A stretch of 33,534 nucleotides of DNA. It comes from Patescibacteria group bacterium. GTDB lineage: Bacteria; Patescibacteriota; Patescibacteriia; Patescibacteriales; UBA12465. Positions 3,636 to 33,534 of the stretch are shown here, piece by piece; the stretch's first letter is position 1, and each line of letters begins with the position of its first letter. The stretch is taken from the NCBI GenBank assembly GCA_028705215.1, contig JAQWDY010000007.1:1-33534 (forward strand). Reading direction: 5' to 3'. The notes beneath the pieces were generated by a model. The model worked only from the letters and a program-made list of their open reading frames with translations, was not told where the DNA came from and did not search any database. The position numbers and the translations under genes were made by a program.

Positions 3636-4802
3636 ATGCAATGGATAAATTTTTTACATTTCTATCAACCAGCTAACACCGATTATTATATTATTAAAGA
3701 GGCACTTGATAAAAGTTATTGGCGGCTGATTAGATTAATGGAAGAGCACCCTAATTTGCGTATGACCTGGAATGTTTCAGGTTGTCTTTTAGAAAGACTT
3801 TATGATGCTCAAGAATTTAATTTTTTAGAAAGACTAGCGGCGCTTATTAAAAATGGACAAATTGAATTGACTGGCACGGCTGCTTATCATGGTCTTTTGC
3901 CGCTTTTGCCCAGGGAGGAGGTAGTAAGGCAAATTGAGGCTAATTTAAAAATAGTAAAGAAAACTTTAGGAATAAAAATAAAACCAGCTGGCTTTTTTTT
4001 ACCGGAAATGGCCTATAGTCCAAAAGTGGCAGAAGTGATTAAATCGTTGGGCTATGAATGGATAATTATTGATGAAGTGGCAACTGAGGTTAAGCCGTGT
4101 TCATTTTTAGTAAAGGATAAAATTAGTGGTTTAAAAGTTGTTCTTCGTAATCGAAAATTATCTCAAACATATCCGCCAACACAAATTTTAAAATCAAAGT
4201 CTGCCTCAGGACAAGATTTTATGATAACCGCTACTGATGCAGAATTATATGGCTTACGACACCAAGATCAAACTGCGGAAATGGAAAAGGTGGGAAAGCT
4301 AAAAGATCTTAAAACGTTGACTATTTCTGAGGCGATAAAAGAATTGGAGAAAGGTGAGTCCTTTGTAATAGATAGCTTAAAATTAAGTCCTTGTTCTTGG
4401 GACTCAACTCGAACTGATATAGAAAATGGCGAACCTTTTAAATTATGGAAAGATAAAAATAATGTTATACATCGTGATTTGTGGCGCTTAGCTAATTTAG
4501 CGCTTTCTCTTGATGAGCTTTTTGCAAAGGATATAAATTACGAGTGGTATCGTTGGCATTTGGTGCGAGGTGTGGCCAGTTGCACTTTTTGGTGGGCCAG
4601 TGAATACGATTTTTCCAATGTTTTTGGACCCTATGCTTGGAACCCGGACATAATTGAAAGAGGTTTGGAAGATATGATAAGGGCGGTTCGATCGCTTAAT
4701 GACAAGAAAAGCAAAAAATATAAATTAGAAGCAGAAAATTATTATTTAAAAATTAAAAAGAATATTTGGCAAAGGCATTGGAATAAGCATTGGCAGAACT
4801 AG
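3636..4802 (+). CDS. Glycoside hydrolase family 57 protein (alpha-glucan amylase/transferase type)
   Basis: GH57 enzymes hydrolyse, transfer or branch alpha-glucans using a retaining mechanism. This 388-residue protein has the family's ordered motifs. HFYQPAN (residues 8-14) matches region 1, and GQIELTGTAAYHGLLPLL lies at about 74-91. LPEMAYSP holds Glu124, the expected nucleophile. TDAELYGLRH holds Asp201, the expected acid/base. It is short and lacks the long C-terminal extensions of branching or amylopullulanase members, so alpha-amylase, 4-alpha-glucanotransferase and related activities are all possible. GH57 genes next to glgA are known from archaea and thermophilic bacteria. Here it starts three bases after the glgA stop. 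The family call is firm; the specific activity is open. Confidence 0.88.
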   Translation: MQWINFLHFYQPANTDYYIIKEALDKSYWRLIRLMEEHPNLRMTWNVSGCLLERLYDAQEFNFLERLAALIKNGQIELTGTAAYHGLLPLLPREEVVRQIEANLKIVKKTLGIKIKPAGFFLPEMAYSPKVAEVIKSLGYEWIIIDEVATEVKPCSFLVKDKISGLKVVLRNRKLSQTYPPTQILKSKSASGQDFMITATDAELYGLRHQDQTAEMEKVGKLKDLKTLTISEAIKELEKGESFVIDSLKLSPCSWDSTRTDIENGEPFKLWKDKNNVIHRDLWRLANLALSLDELFAKDINYEWYRWHLVRGVASCTFWWASEYDFSNVFGPYAWNPDIIERGLEDMIRAVRSLNDKKSKKYKLEAENYYLKIKKNIWQRHWNKHWQN

Positions 4803-4835
4803 CCCGTGGTTGTTTCTTCTGTTATTTATTTACTT

Positions 4836-5867
4836 ATGAACAAAATTTTACAGTTATTTAGAGAAGATTATGTAATTAATCTTTTGCGCGAACAAGTTTT
4901 GCCGCTTTATCCCGAGTATAAAGAAGTTTCTCGGGTTGAGATTAAGCCTTATAAAAAAATGGTTTGGACTAATACTTATCATGTTGTAATTGGCTACAAT
5001 GTTGGCTTTAAAAATCAAGCTGACGAGATTGAGCATGTCTTTATCGTTTGCTCTGCGCACAGCAACGAAGAAAGGAAAAATGTTTTTGCAGTCTTAAAAT
5101 ATTTGTGGCAAAAAGAATTTAATGGGGAAATATTTGATGTGCCTCGTCCCTTATTTTACTCCCCAGATTTTAACGGCACTTTTTATGAGGGGATAAGGGG
5201 AGAAAATTTAATGTATTATATAAAAAATAAAGATTTTTCAGAAATAGAAAACATGGTTCTTTTGTCTGCTAAATTATTTTCTCGTTTACATAAGTTGCCA
5301 GTTAATGAAGAAGCTAATTTTAATCCAATAAATTCTCGGATTAAAACTGTTATTCCTGGATCGGAAGTGATAATCGCAGAGATGACCTATCGTTTTGAGG
5401 GTAAATTTTATGAAGATTTTAAAAAAGTATATTCTAAGTTAATAGAAAAAGAGGAAAAAATATTTTCTCAACCAGATTTTAAGCCTTGTCTTATTCATGG
5501 CGATGCTCACACGGAAAATCTTATAAACACTGGAACAGGAAGGTTAGGTTTAATAGATTTTACCGATTTTTGTTTAGGTGATTTTGCCCGAGACCTGGGC
5601 ACCTTTATGCAACAATTAGAGTATAAAATACTGGCGCGACACGATAATGATGTGGTTTATGCTAAGAAAATGAGTAAGTTATTTTTACATGAATATTTAA
5701 ATGAGAGGAGCTTAACCTTAACATCAGACTTAAATGAACGGATTAGATTGTATTACGATTGGACGGCAGTAAGAACGGTAGTTTATTTATTCTTAAAGCA
5801 TGACAGCGATCCTGCTAAGGCAGAATTATTACTTAATAAGGTAAAACAAGATTTGGCAATTAAATAA
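4836..5867 (+). CDS. APH/choline-kinase-family phosphotransferase
   Basis: The protein has a kinase-like fold of the aminoglycoside phosphotransferase family. IHGDAHTEN supplies the catalytic Asp and Asn (D223 and N228 from this start), and LIDFTDFCLGDFARDLG supplies the metal-binding Asp (about 241). A GTG at 4806 would add ten residues, but the ATG at 4836 is preferred. It fits the local start pattern (T at -1) and the remaining 343 residues begin with an ordinary helix. The substrate is unknown. In this glucan-linked cluster a sugar or maltose-type kinase is conceivable, but the family also includes choline, homoserine and antibiotic kinases. An antibiotic resistance role is unlikely given the chromosomal operon context. 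Confidence 0.82.
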   Translation: MNKILQLFREDYVINLLREQVLPLYPEYKEVSRVEIKPYKKMVWTNTYHVVIGYNVGFKNQADEIEHVFIVCSAHSNEERKNVFAVLKYLWQKEFNGEIFDVPRPLFYSPDFNGTFYEGIRGENLMYYIKNKDFSEIENMVLLSAKLFSRLHKLPVNEEANFNPINSRIKTVIPGSEVIIAEMTYRFEGKFYEDFKKVYSKLIEKEEKIFSQPDFKPCLIHGDAHTENLINTGTGRLGLIDFTDFCLGDFARDLGTFMQQLEYKILARHDNDVVYAKKMSKLFLHEYLNERSLTLTSDLNERIRLYYDWTAVRTVVYLFLKHDSDPAKAELLLNKVKQDLAIK

Positions 5868-5873
5868 TTTGTT

Positions 5874-6959
5874 ATGAAAAATAAAGCAAGTGGGAAAAAT
5901 AAAAAAAAGATAATTAAAATTGCGCATATTCATGTTTGGGATAAAAAAAATAAGGGCGACAGAGCGATAGTTTTAGCGGTGCAAGAGTTATTAAAAAAAC
6001 AAATTAAAAATTGTGAGATTGAAGATTTTCCAGTTGAGGTTTTAAAAACATATTCAGCTTCTAATCTAAACAAAATAAATTCCTGTGATTTGGTCATTGT
6101 TGGTGGCGGAGGAATTTTTTATTCTTATTTTTTGCCTTTTGATATAAAGGCAATCAAGGCTATTTTAATTCCTATTTTTTTATTTGGCCTAGGGTACATT
6201 AAAGAGGTCGGTGCTAAAAAATGGCCAGAAGCTAATATTTCAAGTGTTGTATTTTTAGCCAAGCAAGCTCAAAAGATTGGCGTAAGAGATATAAATACTA
6301 AGCGTTTTTTACAAGCTAATGGAATAAGAGAAAGTAAGTTAGAGGTTATTGGTGATCCCGCCCTATTATTAACTGAAAAAAAACCAAATGAAGAGTTGCT
6401 TAATAAGTTAAAACTTAAAAATAAAAAAATTCGTTTAGGGCTTAATTTAAATTATTCCGGCTGGTTAGGTTTTGGCCTTTGGCGAGATGATATTCTCTTA
6501 GCCTATAAGGAGGTTGCTGCCTACTGGCAAGATAATTTTAAGGCGGAAATATATTATCTTAAACATCACCCTGGAGAGGAAAAAATATATAAAAAATTAG
6601 GAATAAAAAATATTAAGAAAGTTGATTTGCCGCCATGTGAGCAAAAATATGTGTATGGCAAAATGGACTTGATAGTTGGCATGATGTTGCATGTTGGTGT
6701 TTTGTCGGTTGGCGCCCTTACTCCCGAAATTAGTGTTGCTTATGATATTAGAAATTACGGTTTTGCTGAGTATATTAAACATAAAGAGTTGGTGGTTGAT
6801 CTTGATAAATTAAAGAGTAAAGAATTATTGAAAAAAACAAAGATAGTTTATTCTAAAAAAAACTATTATCAAAAAGAATTTAAAAAATTGAAAGTAGAAA
6901 TTAAAAAACAAGAGATTAAATTTTTGCAAGCTGCCATAAAGAGCGTGGCTGTGTTATAA
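5874..6959 (+). CDS. Polysaccharide pyruvyltransferase family protein
   Basis: The 361-residue protein matches the polysaccharide pyruvyltransferase fold (CsaB/WcaK type), whose characterised members move pyruvate from phosphoenolpyruvate onto cell-surface sugars. Visible hallmarks are NKGDRAI at residues 26-32, the CDLVIVGGGGIF strand-loop at about 71-82, KIGVRDINTKRFL, and VIGDPALLL. Near the C-terminus is a GMMLHVGVLS segment carrying the conserved His. It starts six bases after the kinase stop and is probably in the same transcript. The last bases overlap an extended -10 promoter that may serve ftsK. Whether it truly pyruvylates a cell-wall or surface glycan here is an inference; other members of this fold are uncharacterised. 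Confidence 0.82.
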   Translation: MKNKASGKNKKKIIKIAHIHVWDKKNKGDRAIVLAVQELLKKQIKNCEIEDFPVEVLKTYSASNLNKINSCDLVIVGGGGIFYSYFLPFDIKAIKAILIPIFLFGLGYIKEVGAKKWPEANISSVVFLAKQAQKIGVRDINTKRFLQANGIRESKLEVIGDPALLLTEKKPNEELLNKLKLKNKKIRLGLNLNYSGWLGFGLWRDDILLAYKEVAAYWQDNFKAEIYYLKHHPGEEKIYKKLGIKNIKKVDLPPCEQKYVYGKMDLIVGMMLHVGVLSVGALTPEISVAYDIRNYGFAEYIKHKELVVDLDKLKSKELLKKTKIVYSKKNYYQKEFKKLKVEIKKQEIKFLQAAIKSVAVL

Positions 6960-30199: not shown

Positions 30200-31072
30200 T
30201 TAAATTTTATATTTAGAAATGTTGTGTGTGGCAATTTGGGAGATCGCTTTTATATCATCTGGTTTTAAATGTTTAAATCTCCCCTGTTTTTTTAAGTAGC
30301 TTTCTACTGGCTCAGCTTTGAAATTATCTGTTATGCTAGAGTGAGTTAACTGTCCATTTGTATATTCAAGAAGAGGATAAAGAGCGGTTTTAACTGCCAA
30401 TTTTCCCATTGCGGCCGCCTCGCCATAATCTATTTTCCAACCAGGAATACAAGGAGAAAGAATTTGGATATAGGAAGGGCCAGAAATAGTTAGAGCCTTT
30501 TTTACTTTATTGGTAATGTCATCGGGAAAGCCAGAAACTGATTGAGCCACGTATTTAACATTATGAGCTAGGGCAATAGCAAGCATATCTTTTTTATTTT
30601 GAGTAGAGCCAATTGATTGCTTGCCGCTTGGAGTGGTGGTGGTGGCGCTGCCATAAGGGGTAGCGCCAGAGGCTTGTATGCCAGTATTTGAGTATGATTC
30701 AGTGTCATAGCAAATATATAAAATATTTTCCCCTCTTTCCCACATACCACTAATTAAACCCAAGCCAATGTCAAAGGTTCCACCATCTCCAGCTTGAACT
30801 ATAACCTTTGTTTTTTTATCCCCCTTTTTCTTTAAAGAGGCCAAAATGCCGGAAGCAACGGCAGCTGCATTTTCGAATAAGGAATGTATCCAGGGAAGAC
30901 CCCAAGCACTTTCTGGGTAGGCTGTTGTTGTTACCTCCAAGCAGCCAGTTGCATTAGCAATAATAGTATCTTTGCTTAAGCCGCGCATTACTGCTTGAAC
31001 AGCTGATAATTGGCCACAACCAGAACAAGCATTATGCCCTGATGAGAGAAATTGTTTTTTAATATTTTTCAT
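30200..31072 (-). CDS. porB: Pyruvate:ferredoxin oxidoreductase beta subunit (TPP-binding)
   Basis: This subunit binds thiamine pyrophosphate and an iron-sulfur cluster in the enzyme that turns pyruvate and CoA into acetyl-CoA, CO2 and reduced ferredoxin. The 290-residue protein has four cysteines in the expected places: Cys16 and Cys19 in CSGCG, Cys44 in ATGCLE and Cys208 in LSPCIPGW. The TPP motif runs from AGDGGTFDIG (94-103) to YDTESYSNTG (122-131). A GSATTTTPSGK segment is also typical. The other subunits (alpha, gamma, delta) are not in the window. The gene lies 23 bases downstream of two pilin-like genes on the same strand, with no clear promoter of its own. A related 2-oxoacid oxidoreductase is a lesser possibility. 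Confidence 0.9.
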   Translation of the reverse strand: MKNIKKQFLSSGHNACSGCGQLSAVQAVMRGLSKDTIIANATGCLEVTTTAYPESAWGLPWIHSLFENAAAVASGILASLKKKGDKKTKVIVQAGDGGTFDIGLGLISGMWERGENILYICYDTESYSNTGIQASGATPYGSATTTTPSGKQSIGSTQNKKDMLAIALAHNVKYVAQSVSGFPDDITNKVKKALTISGPSYIQILSPCIPGWKIDYGEAAAMGKLAVKTALYPLLEYTNGQLTHSSITDNFKAEPVESYLKKQGRFKHLKPDDIKAISQIATHNISKYKI

Positions 31073-31095: not shown

Positions 31096-32124
31096 TCAGA
31101 GTGAATCATCACTTGACCTTATTTCAATATAGTCAGATGTTTTAATAATAATTGCCGAAGAATCGCATTTTTCCAGAGCGTCTTCAAAATTTTCAAAATT
31201 ATCTACATCTGCTAATTTTATTGATTGTGGCTCTAGAGTGAGAATGGTGCCAACTCCACCGGGTAGATTATCGCGCATACAGTTTAATAGCTGTGCAAGA
31301 TTAGAGCTTACTTCATTTAAGGCTAGGTTTTCTATTTTAACCCCGGGTGCCAGATTCCAGCCGACATAATTAAATTGTTTATTATAATCAATAAAGTCAG
31401 TCGCATAGCCACATCTTGAAATTTTTTCGTCAGTGGAAGTTATGCAAGAATTATCTGGTATATATTTAGGGACGGAATAAACGTATAAAGTTGTTATATC
31501 AAAAATTATATTTTTAAATTTTTCATTAGCATATTTAAGACACAAGGCTTGGCAGTCTTCCTGAGACCCAATTTCAACGCCGCTATAACAGGTAAATTGT
31601 TCAGAAACAGGAAGTTCGAACAAAATTTCATGACGCGTAAAATCACATTCACAGCATCCAACTGTAGTATTTTTGACTGGCTCCTTCATCATGTCTATAG
31701 AAATATCCCTTTTTTTAAGCAGCTCAGGGTTAATGGTATCTAAAATAAAATAAGAAAGTAAAAGAATTACTAATCCGACCAAACTACTTGTTATCATGGT
31801 TTTAGCTTTAGAGATAGTGCTTTTATTGCCAGCTGAAATTAGCCAGATTACACCTCCAGCCATTAGCATTACAGCCGCTAAAATGCCAGCAATCATGAAA
31901 CTATAATTATAAATTCCTTCTATGTATTTTGCCAGAAGATCGCTTTTCATTTTATCTCCCTCTTTTTTACCCACGGGCATTTCTCCTTCTAAACCAGGAA
32001 TTGGTATTTGAAATTTAAAATCAATTTGTGCTTGCAGTGGAGTGGCGGGGAAAACCATAACAAGCAATGAAAACAAAAAGATCAAGATAAAAAGAAGTTG
32101 TGGCTTGAAAATAATTTTTTTCAT
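31096..32124 (-). CDS. TrbC/VirB2-like two-helix protein with one six-cysteine module and degenerate C-terminus
   Basis: The 342-residue protein has a signal peptide (cleavage likely near Ala32 in PLQA), a short linker, and two membrane helices at about 74-97 and 110-129. Their style (SFMIAGILAAVMLMAGGVIW, then a basic loop) matches TrbC/VirB2 pilin-like proteins common in Patescibacteria. After residue 150 comes a cysteine module: Cys157, 158, 160, 179, 191 and 195. The C-terminal part (about 250-342) aligns with the end of the neighbouring paralog. It lacks that protein's SCHYGG segment, and the HIH motif is replaced by YIE. The first 150 residues are nearly identical to the paralog, with identical DNA. 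It starts five bases after the paralog's stop. A surface or secretion role is an inference. Confidence 0.8.
   Translation of the reverse strand: MKKIIFKPQLLFILIFLFSLLVMVFPATPLQAQIDFKFQIPIPGLEGEMPVGKKEGDKMKSDLLAKYIEGIYNYSFMIAGILAAVMLMAGGVIWLISAGNKSTISKAKTMITSSLVGLVILLLSYFILDTINPELLKKRDISIDMMKEPVKNTTVGCCECDFTRHEILFELPVSEQFTCYSGVEIGSQEDCQALCLKYANEKFKNIIFDITTLYVYSVPKYIPDNSCITSTDEKISRCGYATDFIDYNKQFNYVGWNLAPGVKIENLALNEVSSNLAQLLNCMRDNLPGGVGTILTLEPQSIKLADVDNFENFEDALEKCDSSAIIIKTSDYIEIRSSDDSL
31677..32091 (-). repeat. Direct repeat copy 1: shared N-terminal region of the pilin-like genes
   Basis: Compared by eye with 33026-33440 at a constant offset of 1349, the block 31677-32055 (379 bases) is identical, and only two mismatches (32056 and 32058) are seen out to 32091. 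It covers most of the signal peptide and both membrane helices. Identity ends sharply on both sides. Confidence 0.9.
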
Positions 32125-32129
32125 ACTAT

Positions 32130-33473
32130 TTATAATTTAGGACAGGAATTCGTGCTTATATGAATATGATCTCCTTCAAAAAGAATTTTAGTTGCCGTGT
32201 CACATTTTTTCACCGCTTCAATAAATGCCTGATAGTTTTCTTCATCTCCTAAGTCAACCGCGTGTGATTTATCAAATGTGCCGCCCCCATAGTGACAAGA
32301 ATTTTGACTGTGTACACAATCGTTATTTTGATAATTATCGCCGACACAATTTTGTAATTCGCCAATATTATTAGAATCACTAATAGATGATATTCTGCCA
32401 ACGCCAGGATCTAAATATTGACTCATGCAATTAAGAAGTTGCGCTAATTCAGGGCTTGCGTCATTTATTTGTTTTTCAATGCCTGGATCAAATGTCCATC
32501 CAGAAGAATCGAGATAACTCTGATAGAATCTTAAGGTATTTATTTCAACGCATCTTTGCTCAAGCGGCGTTGTTATCTCTATGTTTTCTGCACATGTCTG
32601 CTTTGGTTTATAAATAAGCATCTGCATTTTTTGATCTTTGCATAATTTCTCACAAGCGGACTCACTTAAATTCGGACTGGAATTGCAAGGAAAGTTTGTT
32701 CTTGAGGCATAATCACCACAAACACAACAGGCAACGGAGAGATCTTTAATTGAGCCGAAGATTGGCGTTCCTAGTGCAGCGTCGGGAGGAGCCGCACATA
32801 TATTTTTTTCATTGCATTCAGCATTTTTTATCACCTGTGAGCTTTTCAATACTCTTCCTGCTCCTCCGCGCTCTTCACATGTTTCTCTACATTGTTCATC
32901 GCTAATTTCTTCATTAGATTGCTCGCAATAATTTACTGGCAATTGGGTTGTATACGATCCACCGGTTGGATTAGTAGAAGTTGTGGATTCAACTAAGTCA
33001 CACTGACAGCAATAATCGCTAAACTCTGGCTCCTTCATCATGTCTATAGAAATATCCCTTTTTTTAAGCAGCTCAGGGTTAATGGTATCTAAAATAAAAT
33101 AAGAAAGTAAAAGAATTACTAATCCGACCAAACTACTTGTTATCATGGTTTTAGCTTTAGAGATAGTGCTTTTATTGCCAGCTGAAATTAGCCAGATTAC
33201 ACCTCCAGCCATTAGCATTACAGCCGCTAAAATGCCAGCAATCATGAAACTATAATTATAAATTCCTTCTATGTATTTTGCCAGAAGATCGCTTTTCATT
33301 TTATCTCCCTCTTTTTTACCCACGGGCATTTCTCCTTCTAAACCAGGAATTGGTATTTGAAATTTAAAATCAATTTGTGCTTGCAGTGGAGTGGCGGGGA
33401 AAACAACAACAAGCAATGAAAACAAAAAGATCAAGATAAACAGGGGGCGTAGTTTGAGAGTAATCTTTTTCAT
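32130..33473 (-). CDS. TrbC/VirB2-like two-helix protein with two six-cysteine modules and HxH-type C-terminal domain
   Basis: The 447-residue protein shares its signal peptide and two membrane helices (about 74-97 and 110-129) with the downstream paralog. It then carries two cysteine modules with the same spacing style: Cys155, 156, 158, 183, 195, 199 and Cys249, 250, 252, 263, 274, 278. The C-terminal domain (about 340-447) contains SCHYGG (His394), HAVDLGD (Asp407) and GDHIHIS (His436 and His438). This order recalls zinc-dependent M15-type peptidases (SxHxxG...AxD...HxH), although the spacing between His394 and Asp407 is longer than usual. A wall-acting or metal-binding role is therefore only a suggestion. 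It is the first gene of the minus-strand operon; no clear promoter can be picked in the remaining 61 bases. Confidence 0.8.
   Translation of the reverse strand: MKKITLKLRPLFILIFLFSLLVVVFPATPLQAQIDFKFQIPIPGLEGEMPVGKKEGDKMKSDLLAKYIEGIYNYSFMIAGILAAVMLMAGGVIWLISAGNKSTISKAKTMITSSLVGLVILLLSYFILDTINPELLKKRDISIDMMKEPEFSDYCCQCDLVESTTSTNPTGGSYTTQLPVNYCEQSNEEISDEQCRETCEERGGAGRVLKSSQVIKNAECNEKNICAAPPDAALGTPIFGSIKDLSVACCVCGDYASRTNFPCNSSPNLSESACEKLCKDQKMQMLIYKPKQTCAENIEITTPLEQRCVEINTLRFYQSYLDSSGWTFDPGIEKQINDASPELAQLLNCMSQYLDPGVGRISSISDSNNIGELQNCVGDNYQNNDCVHSQNSCHYGGGTFDKSHAVDLGDEENYQAFIEAVKKCDTATKILFEGDHIHISTNSCPKL
33026..33440 (-). repeat. Direct repeat copy 2: shared N-terminal region of the pilin-like genes
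   Basis: This is the partner of 31677-32091; 33026-33404 is identical to 31677-32055, including synonymous positions. The regions coding for the very first residues and for everything after residue 149 differ clearly, so identity is confined to the export and membrane part. Confidence 0.9.
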
Positions 33474-33534
33474 ATATTAAATATTAAATAAAGTTTTATC
33501 ACTTTTAATATTTGCGTTTTTTATGATATTTGTT

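Follow-up and report, generated by a model that had tools for sequence, protein, structure and literature searches.

The window analysed here is the whole of contig C18 (33,534 nt), part of a 746-kb genome that is assembled in 36 contigs and is 99% complete. Close to its end lie two genes, B and A, arranged head to tail on the minus strand and 5 nt apart; the window ends 61 nt upstream of gene B. The features that the analysis draws on are the following.

32130–33473, minus strand: gene B, 447 aa, with a signal peptide, a two-helix PF18895-like module, a Cys-rich outer half (22 Cys) and a C-terminal H/D/HxH domain
31096–32124, minus strand: gene A, 342 aa, with an N-terminal half as in B, a shorter outer half (10 Cys) and a C-terminal domain without the H/D/HxH residues
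33026–33440, minus strand: homogenised tract of gene B, in which 33026–33404 are 379 identical nt, followed by 2 mismatches and 33 identical nt
31677–32091, minus strand: homogenised tract of gene A, in which 31677–32055 are 379 identical nt, followed by 2 mismatches and 33 identical nt
32130–33025, minus strand: outer half of gene B, diverged from that of A (33% aa identity; saturated synonymous sites)
31096–31676, minus strand: outer half of gene A
32151–32318, minus strand: CVHSxxSCHYGG...AVD...HIHIS motif region of gene B, a possible metal site that is common to five relatives and lost in A
30200–31072, minus strand: porB, the TPP-binding beta subunit of a 2-oxoacid:ferredoxin oxidoreductase, directly downstream of A
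33408–33534, no strand: 127-nt end overlap with contig C1, an assembly-graph junction whose end, gene B nt 66, is the last base ahead of the first mismatch between A and B

Upstream of B, contig C1 carries the genes for a DsbA-like thioredoxin, porG, porD and porA, and the arrangement dsbA-porG-porD-porA-[anchor gene(s)]-porB-[anchor gene] is conserved across the order to which this tiny and probably parasitic bacterium belongs. The usual succession in family f1 is dsbA-porG-porD-porA-[pilin-like p1]-porB-[pilin-like p2]-rnhA; other families of the order carry two tandem pilin-like genes between porA and porB. About 40 genomes of the order have anchor genes between the alpha and beta subunit genes of the 2-oxoacid:ferredoxin oxidoreductase and a DsbA-like gene at the operon start, and at one locus (L076 of G022, 4143–6463) the dsbA/porG part is inverted relative to porA. 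A scan of GTDB contigs with B returned one distant relative.

The sequence-only reading of this DNA had reported 379 perfectly identical bases shared by the two adjacent genes, or 415 with two mismatches, and these figures are exact (31677–32055 in A and 33026–33404 in B). Counted from the gene start, nt 70–448 show no difference, and the 415-nt run from nt 34 to 448 holds two mismatches, at nt 67 and 69. Divergence is immediate on both sides of the 415-nt run, so that the abrupt passage into different outer parts described in that reading begins at once beyond nt 448. The first 11 codons differ between A and B, as does everything beyond codon 149 (divergence from codon 150). Encoded in the identical block are two hydrophobic helices, the linker before them and the later part of the signal peptide; the claim that it covers the signal region and both helices thus holds for the helices and, for the signal peptide, only for its later part.

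The two-helix core is covered by a match to the T4SS_pilin profile (PF18895) at about the family cut-off. A and B reached 26.2 and 25.6 bits in hmmscan, slightly below the cut-off of 26.6; the module of both scored 30.3 bits, above it, in a profile search of the genome; and orthologues exceed it (G006, 30.2; G003, 32.6; G047, 35.0). Hydropathy places hydrophobic segments at 10–28, 78–96 and 110–128, with a short Lys-containing loop read from the sequence as SAGNKSTISKAK between the module helices; signal peptide, two hydrophobic helices and Lys loop together form the PF18895 architecture. A functional pilus subunit would be a small protein that polymerises; A and B measure 342 and 447 aa and have large outer halves. 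No virB4 or other T4SS gene was found near the locus, where the neighbours in relatives are por, dsbA, leuS, xthA, rnhA, recJ or rpoC, and the sole VirB4-like ATPase match found sits on a different contig, C12. The outer halves are Cys-rich (median 8 per 100 aa), and the membrane module has a median of none, a richness compatible with an oxidised setting outside the cell, in which the DsbA-like protein may play a part. Judged from the sequences, each gene probably encodes a VirB2/T4SS-pilin-like two-helix base of about 84 aa joined to a large disulphide-rich outer half, itself probably extracellular. We infer that the outer halves lie outside the cell and are folded with help of the operon's DsbA-like protein.

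PF18895-like modules also occur elsewhere in genome G000. On contig C27 (L148, 1881–10333), two neighbouring proteins of great length (888 and 1917 aa) have this T4SS_pilin-like module at the start, followed by Ig-like (Big_5, TIG) and fn3 domains, so that the base also bears adhesin-like outer parts. Contig C9 (107241–109655 and 114084–114287) carries a five-member array of short PF18895 proteins of about 130–170 aa, with one more PF18895 protein nearby and another at 42 kb; this is an ordinary Patescibacteria pilin array. Together with the size of the genome and its gene content, the PF18895 arrays place the organism with the Patescibacteria.

Several different heads are recognised by Pfam on the same base at the locus in related bacteria. 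These are SLT (2e-24 and 8e-18), VanY (1e-14 to 2e-3) and peptidase C39 (2e-12), together with an NlpC/P60 head (3e-4) and a 3D head (7e-4) that both fall slightly below the cut-off. In most pairs the first gene is Cys-rich and has no recognised enzyme, and a domain search of the genome that carries A and B found no SLT domain. The C-terminal domain of B is common to G006, G003, G009, G004 and G010, with the SCHYG, AVD/AID and HxH residues kept; A ends in the same domain with these residues lost. The H/D/HxH residues of B form a possible metal site, and A is predicted to be, probably, a non-catalytic derivative. An M15 zinc peptidase, as the H/D/HxH motif might suggest for the C-terminal domain of B, found no support in Pfam, a PDB sequence search, AlphaFold2 with Foldseek, or hhalign: Pfam gave no enzyme match, all PDB matches had E > 0.1, and hhalign found no significant match to the VanY profile. 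The model of the corresponding domain of A is good (pLDDT 84) and has no convincing PDB match.

The two halves of the genes differ greatly in age. Within the block, 0.5 of 82 synonymous sites differ between A and B (Ks 0.006), as against 79 of 111 in the outer halves (pS 0.71, saturated), which share 33% of their amino acids. The nearest relative, G006, has a single gene at the locus; its outer half is 44% identical to that of A and 47% to that of B, and its block differs from the A/B block at 57 of 83 synonymous sites. Because each outer half is closer to G006 than to the other, the outer halves must be at least about as old as the G006 split, and a young block next to old, saturated outer halves indicates that the N-terminal halves were homogenised long after that split. 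Judged by synonymous divergence, what took place was gene conversion, or an equivalent event in which one N-terminal half replaced the other, and not a young duplication. The tract is young and sharply bounded within old paralogues, as gene conversion predicts, and other tandem pairs look alike. The preference for conversion over recent duplication in the sequence-only reading is therefore borne out by the very comparison it had proposed, that of synonymous divergence inside and outside the block. We consider it highly probable that A and B are old tandem paralogues in the por operon, that the membrane half of one was recently converted to that of the other, and that, independently, outer halves in the order are replaced between species.

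Another route to a young block is the insertion of a cassette, in which a foreign outer half was brought in and the resident N-terminal half was duplicated, the block being young by duplication. Species do exchange outer halves at the same junction, and the C-terminal part of B also matches the p2 genes of G003, G009, G004 and G010. However, A and B differ in their first 11 codons and in the upstream DNA, so the duplicated piece would have to exclude the gene start, and both outer halves have a counterpart in G006. We regard this explanation as improbable.

It is very unlikely that the identity is an assembly artefact, that is, that the N-terminal halves differ in the cell and a single copy was placed twice by the short-read assembler. 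The end of C18 repeats the end of C1 over 127 nt, and exact 127-nt overlaps recur in seven further contig-end pairs of the genome, which points to an assembly graph with k = 127; the block is longer than k, and the contig stops 61 nt upstream of gene B, all of which would suit an artefact. Nevertheless, the junction between the end of B and the start of A is unique, and any linear molecule that carries it must hold the block at least twice, once before the outer half of B and once after the start of A. Copies that differ more often than about once per 127 nt would have stayed unmerged, the assembly preserves the mismatches at nt 67 and 69 beside the block, and similar tandem tracts are found in other assemblies. 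Since the merging of distinct blocks needs near identity over every 127 nt, the identity of the block is taken as at least 99%; a few mismatches hidden by bubble removal, or a collapsed third tandem copy, are possible in a short-read assembly. The join of C1 to C18 is consistent with the gene order of the relatives. A repeat alone would fork the graph at nt 196, and the fork at gene B nt 66, where C1 ends, suggests instead that the end of the tract is polymorphic in the population, some reads carrying the upstream sequence of B followed by A-type bases.

A recent tandem duplication of the entire gene, with subsequent fast divergence of the outer halves under positive selection, is very improbable and in its plain form is rejected: the genes are adjacent on the same strand with a 5-nt spacer and their outer halves can be aligned over part of their length, but selection on the protein cannot saturate synonymous sites in one half only (pS 0.71 against 0.5 of 82), and the closer kinship of each outer half to the G006 gene contradicts it unless the outer halves came from outside.

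Among the relatives, sampled as one genome per species, neighbouring copies are likewise often homogenised, and then in the membrane module alone. A tree was built from 76 membrane modules (84 columns, with many unresolved forks). The p2 genes of family f1, which follow porB, form one group in it (23 rows) and never join the p1 of their own genome. The tandem pairs that group by genome are the A/B pair itself (identical) and those of G028 (100/92), G038 (98/91), G043 (100/94), G047 (98/87) and G052 (100/100), as well as, weakly, that of G021 (84/20); the pairs of G039, G041, G058 and G059 do not. The nearest identity lies within the genome for 7 of the 10 scored tandem pairs versus 0 of 21 genomes with copies flanking porB (Fisher test on pairs, 7/10 v 0/23, p = 3e-5 with related genomes counted as independent; p = 3e-4 when restricted to genomes with a congener in the set). 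Homogenisation across porB was thus not seen in the tree of 76 modules or in the 21 split-copy genomes. Two distinct N-termini in related genomes had been named in advance as evidence against conversion; they occur where porB separates the copies and are missing from many relatives with adjacent copies, which limits the conversion claim without refuting it.

The pairs of G028 and G021 separate the histories of base and head. Between G028_7577 and G021_8909 the outer halves are clearly orthologous (alignment score 359, 44%), whereas the modules of these two genes are closer to those of their genome mates (81% and 79%) than to each other (65%). The AU test rejects a tree in which these two modules join (p = 0.018) and likewise a tree that unites the other two G028/G021 genes (p = 0.009), the outer halves of which do not pair. 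Short, sharp tracts with divergence on both sides are also found within the module in G052 (147 of 150 nt) and G043 (87 of 90 nt). In G043, G047 and G052, for which the set contains no close relative, the tandem pair may instead have arisen by an independent duplication after which an outer half was replaced.

Cassette-like exchange of the outer part, another proposal of the sequence-only reading, is seen between species. G003 and G009 are close, with flanking proteins 91–98% identical. As far as the end of the module, the DNA identity of their p1 genes is about 84%; beyond it the outer half has been replaced, and similarity resumes with porB. For the outer half of G009 the match is in the more distant G008 (49% over 171 aa, 192 bits), not in G003. 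Likewise, porA, porB, leuS and the p2 module all make G026 and G034 sisters, and their p2 heads are an NlpC/P60 domain (63% to that of G016) and a VanY domain (71% to that of G031), respectively. The breakpoints in the exchanged pairs fall at the end of the membrane module. Separately, the second genes of the congeners G041 and G059 are similar (TM module 92%, outer half 231 bits), and the outer halves of their p1a genes (L173 7486 and L178 7660) have no detectable similarity, another likely head replacement.

Within the genome, a search for further copies of the block, also suggested beforehand, found only those of A and B in this 99% complete assembly, and no silent cassette store. An antigenic variation system with silent cassettes is rejected on that count, and the earlier idea of surface variation finds no support in the form proposed, given that the recognisable outer halves are often peptidoglycan hydrolases.

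Intrachromosomal gene conversion between the adjacent genes A and B would have overwritten one membrane half with that of the other, and the tract would stop where the outer half starts because no homology is left there to pair. The same process would recur in other tandem pairs of the order. RecA-type recombination is the putative agent, as it needs homology, which adjacent copies offer only in the part that encodes the base. The base would thereby be kept uniform, and heads flanked by conserved DNA could be exchanged between lineages, through recombination in the conserved base-coding DNA on one side and in the conserved next gene (the porB or rnhA side) on the other.

For Patescibacteria, which live on other cells, the manner in which walls are opened or remodelled at the contact site is unsettled. 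In the hydrolase-bearing genes, and in these only, the outer half is likely a head that acts on the wall or in contact and is mounted on a T4SS-like base. More generally, the VirB2-like base may carry exchangeable heads, Cys-rich or active on the wall, that perhaps provide the VirB1-type activity which Patescibacteria often lack. A bolder proposal, which we put forward tentatively and hold to be rather doubtful, is that the base serves as a universal socket, its adjacent copies kept uniform by conversion while unrelated wall-cutting heads (SLT, VanY, C39, NlpC/P60, 3D) are swapped between species, so that a T4SS-like apparatus gains the VirB1 activity it lacks, possibly in a form suited to the host cell wall. 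The fusion of wall hydrolases with a VirB2-like module, at a single conserved locus, makes the VirB1 gap testable. In the open-access literature, we found no paper on gene conversion in these bacteria and no description of a T4SS_pilin domain fused to wall hydrolases.

The closest known counterparts are the VirB2-like arrays of Patescibacteria. As described in the available text of PMC12102498, these comprise 2–11 genes with a within-array identity of 25% on average and 54% at most, their variability is discussed as a possible host adaptation, and VirB1 is absent from most genomes with VirB2-like proteins; that portion of the paper does not describe VirB2-like proteins fused to wall hydrolases. 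A and B resemble these arrays in Pfam family, in the signal peptide and two helices, in the tandem or interrupted arrangement and in the kind of organism. They differ in a module that is 100% identical, against at most 54%, and the proteins of the locus differ in having outer halves of roughly 90–320 aa, often wall hydrolases, and in lying in a por operon and not near virB4. VirB1-type hydrolases (VirB1, TraG of pIP501 and PrgK, as covered in the same text) share with the heads the placement of SLT and NlpC/P60-type domains at the membrane near T4SS-type proteins. Here, by contrast, the enzyme and a VirB2-like two-helix module form one polypeptide, in which the enzyme is exchanged for unrelated folds, and any link to a T4SS is hypothetical. 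The locus combines a membrane module kept unchanged by gene conversion with an outer part that is replaced as a unit. In this it recalls mammalian TLR1/TLR6, for which the available text of PMC2077338 describes a coding part homogenised between neighbours as the rest diverges; unlike in those receptors, the genes here are bacterial, the homogenised part is the membrane module, and the free part is replaced by unrelated domains.
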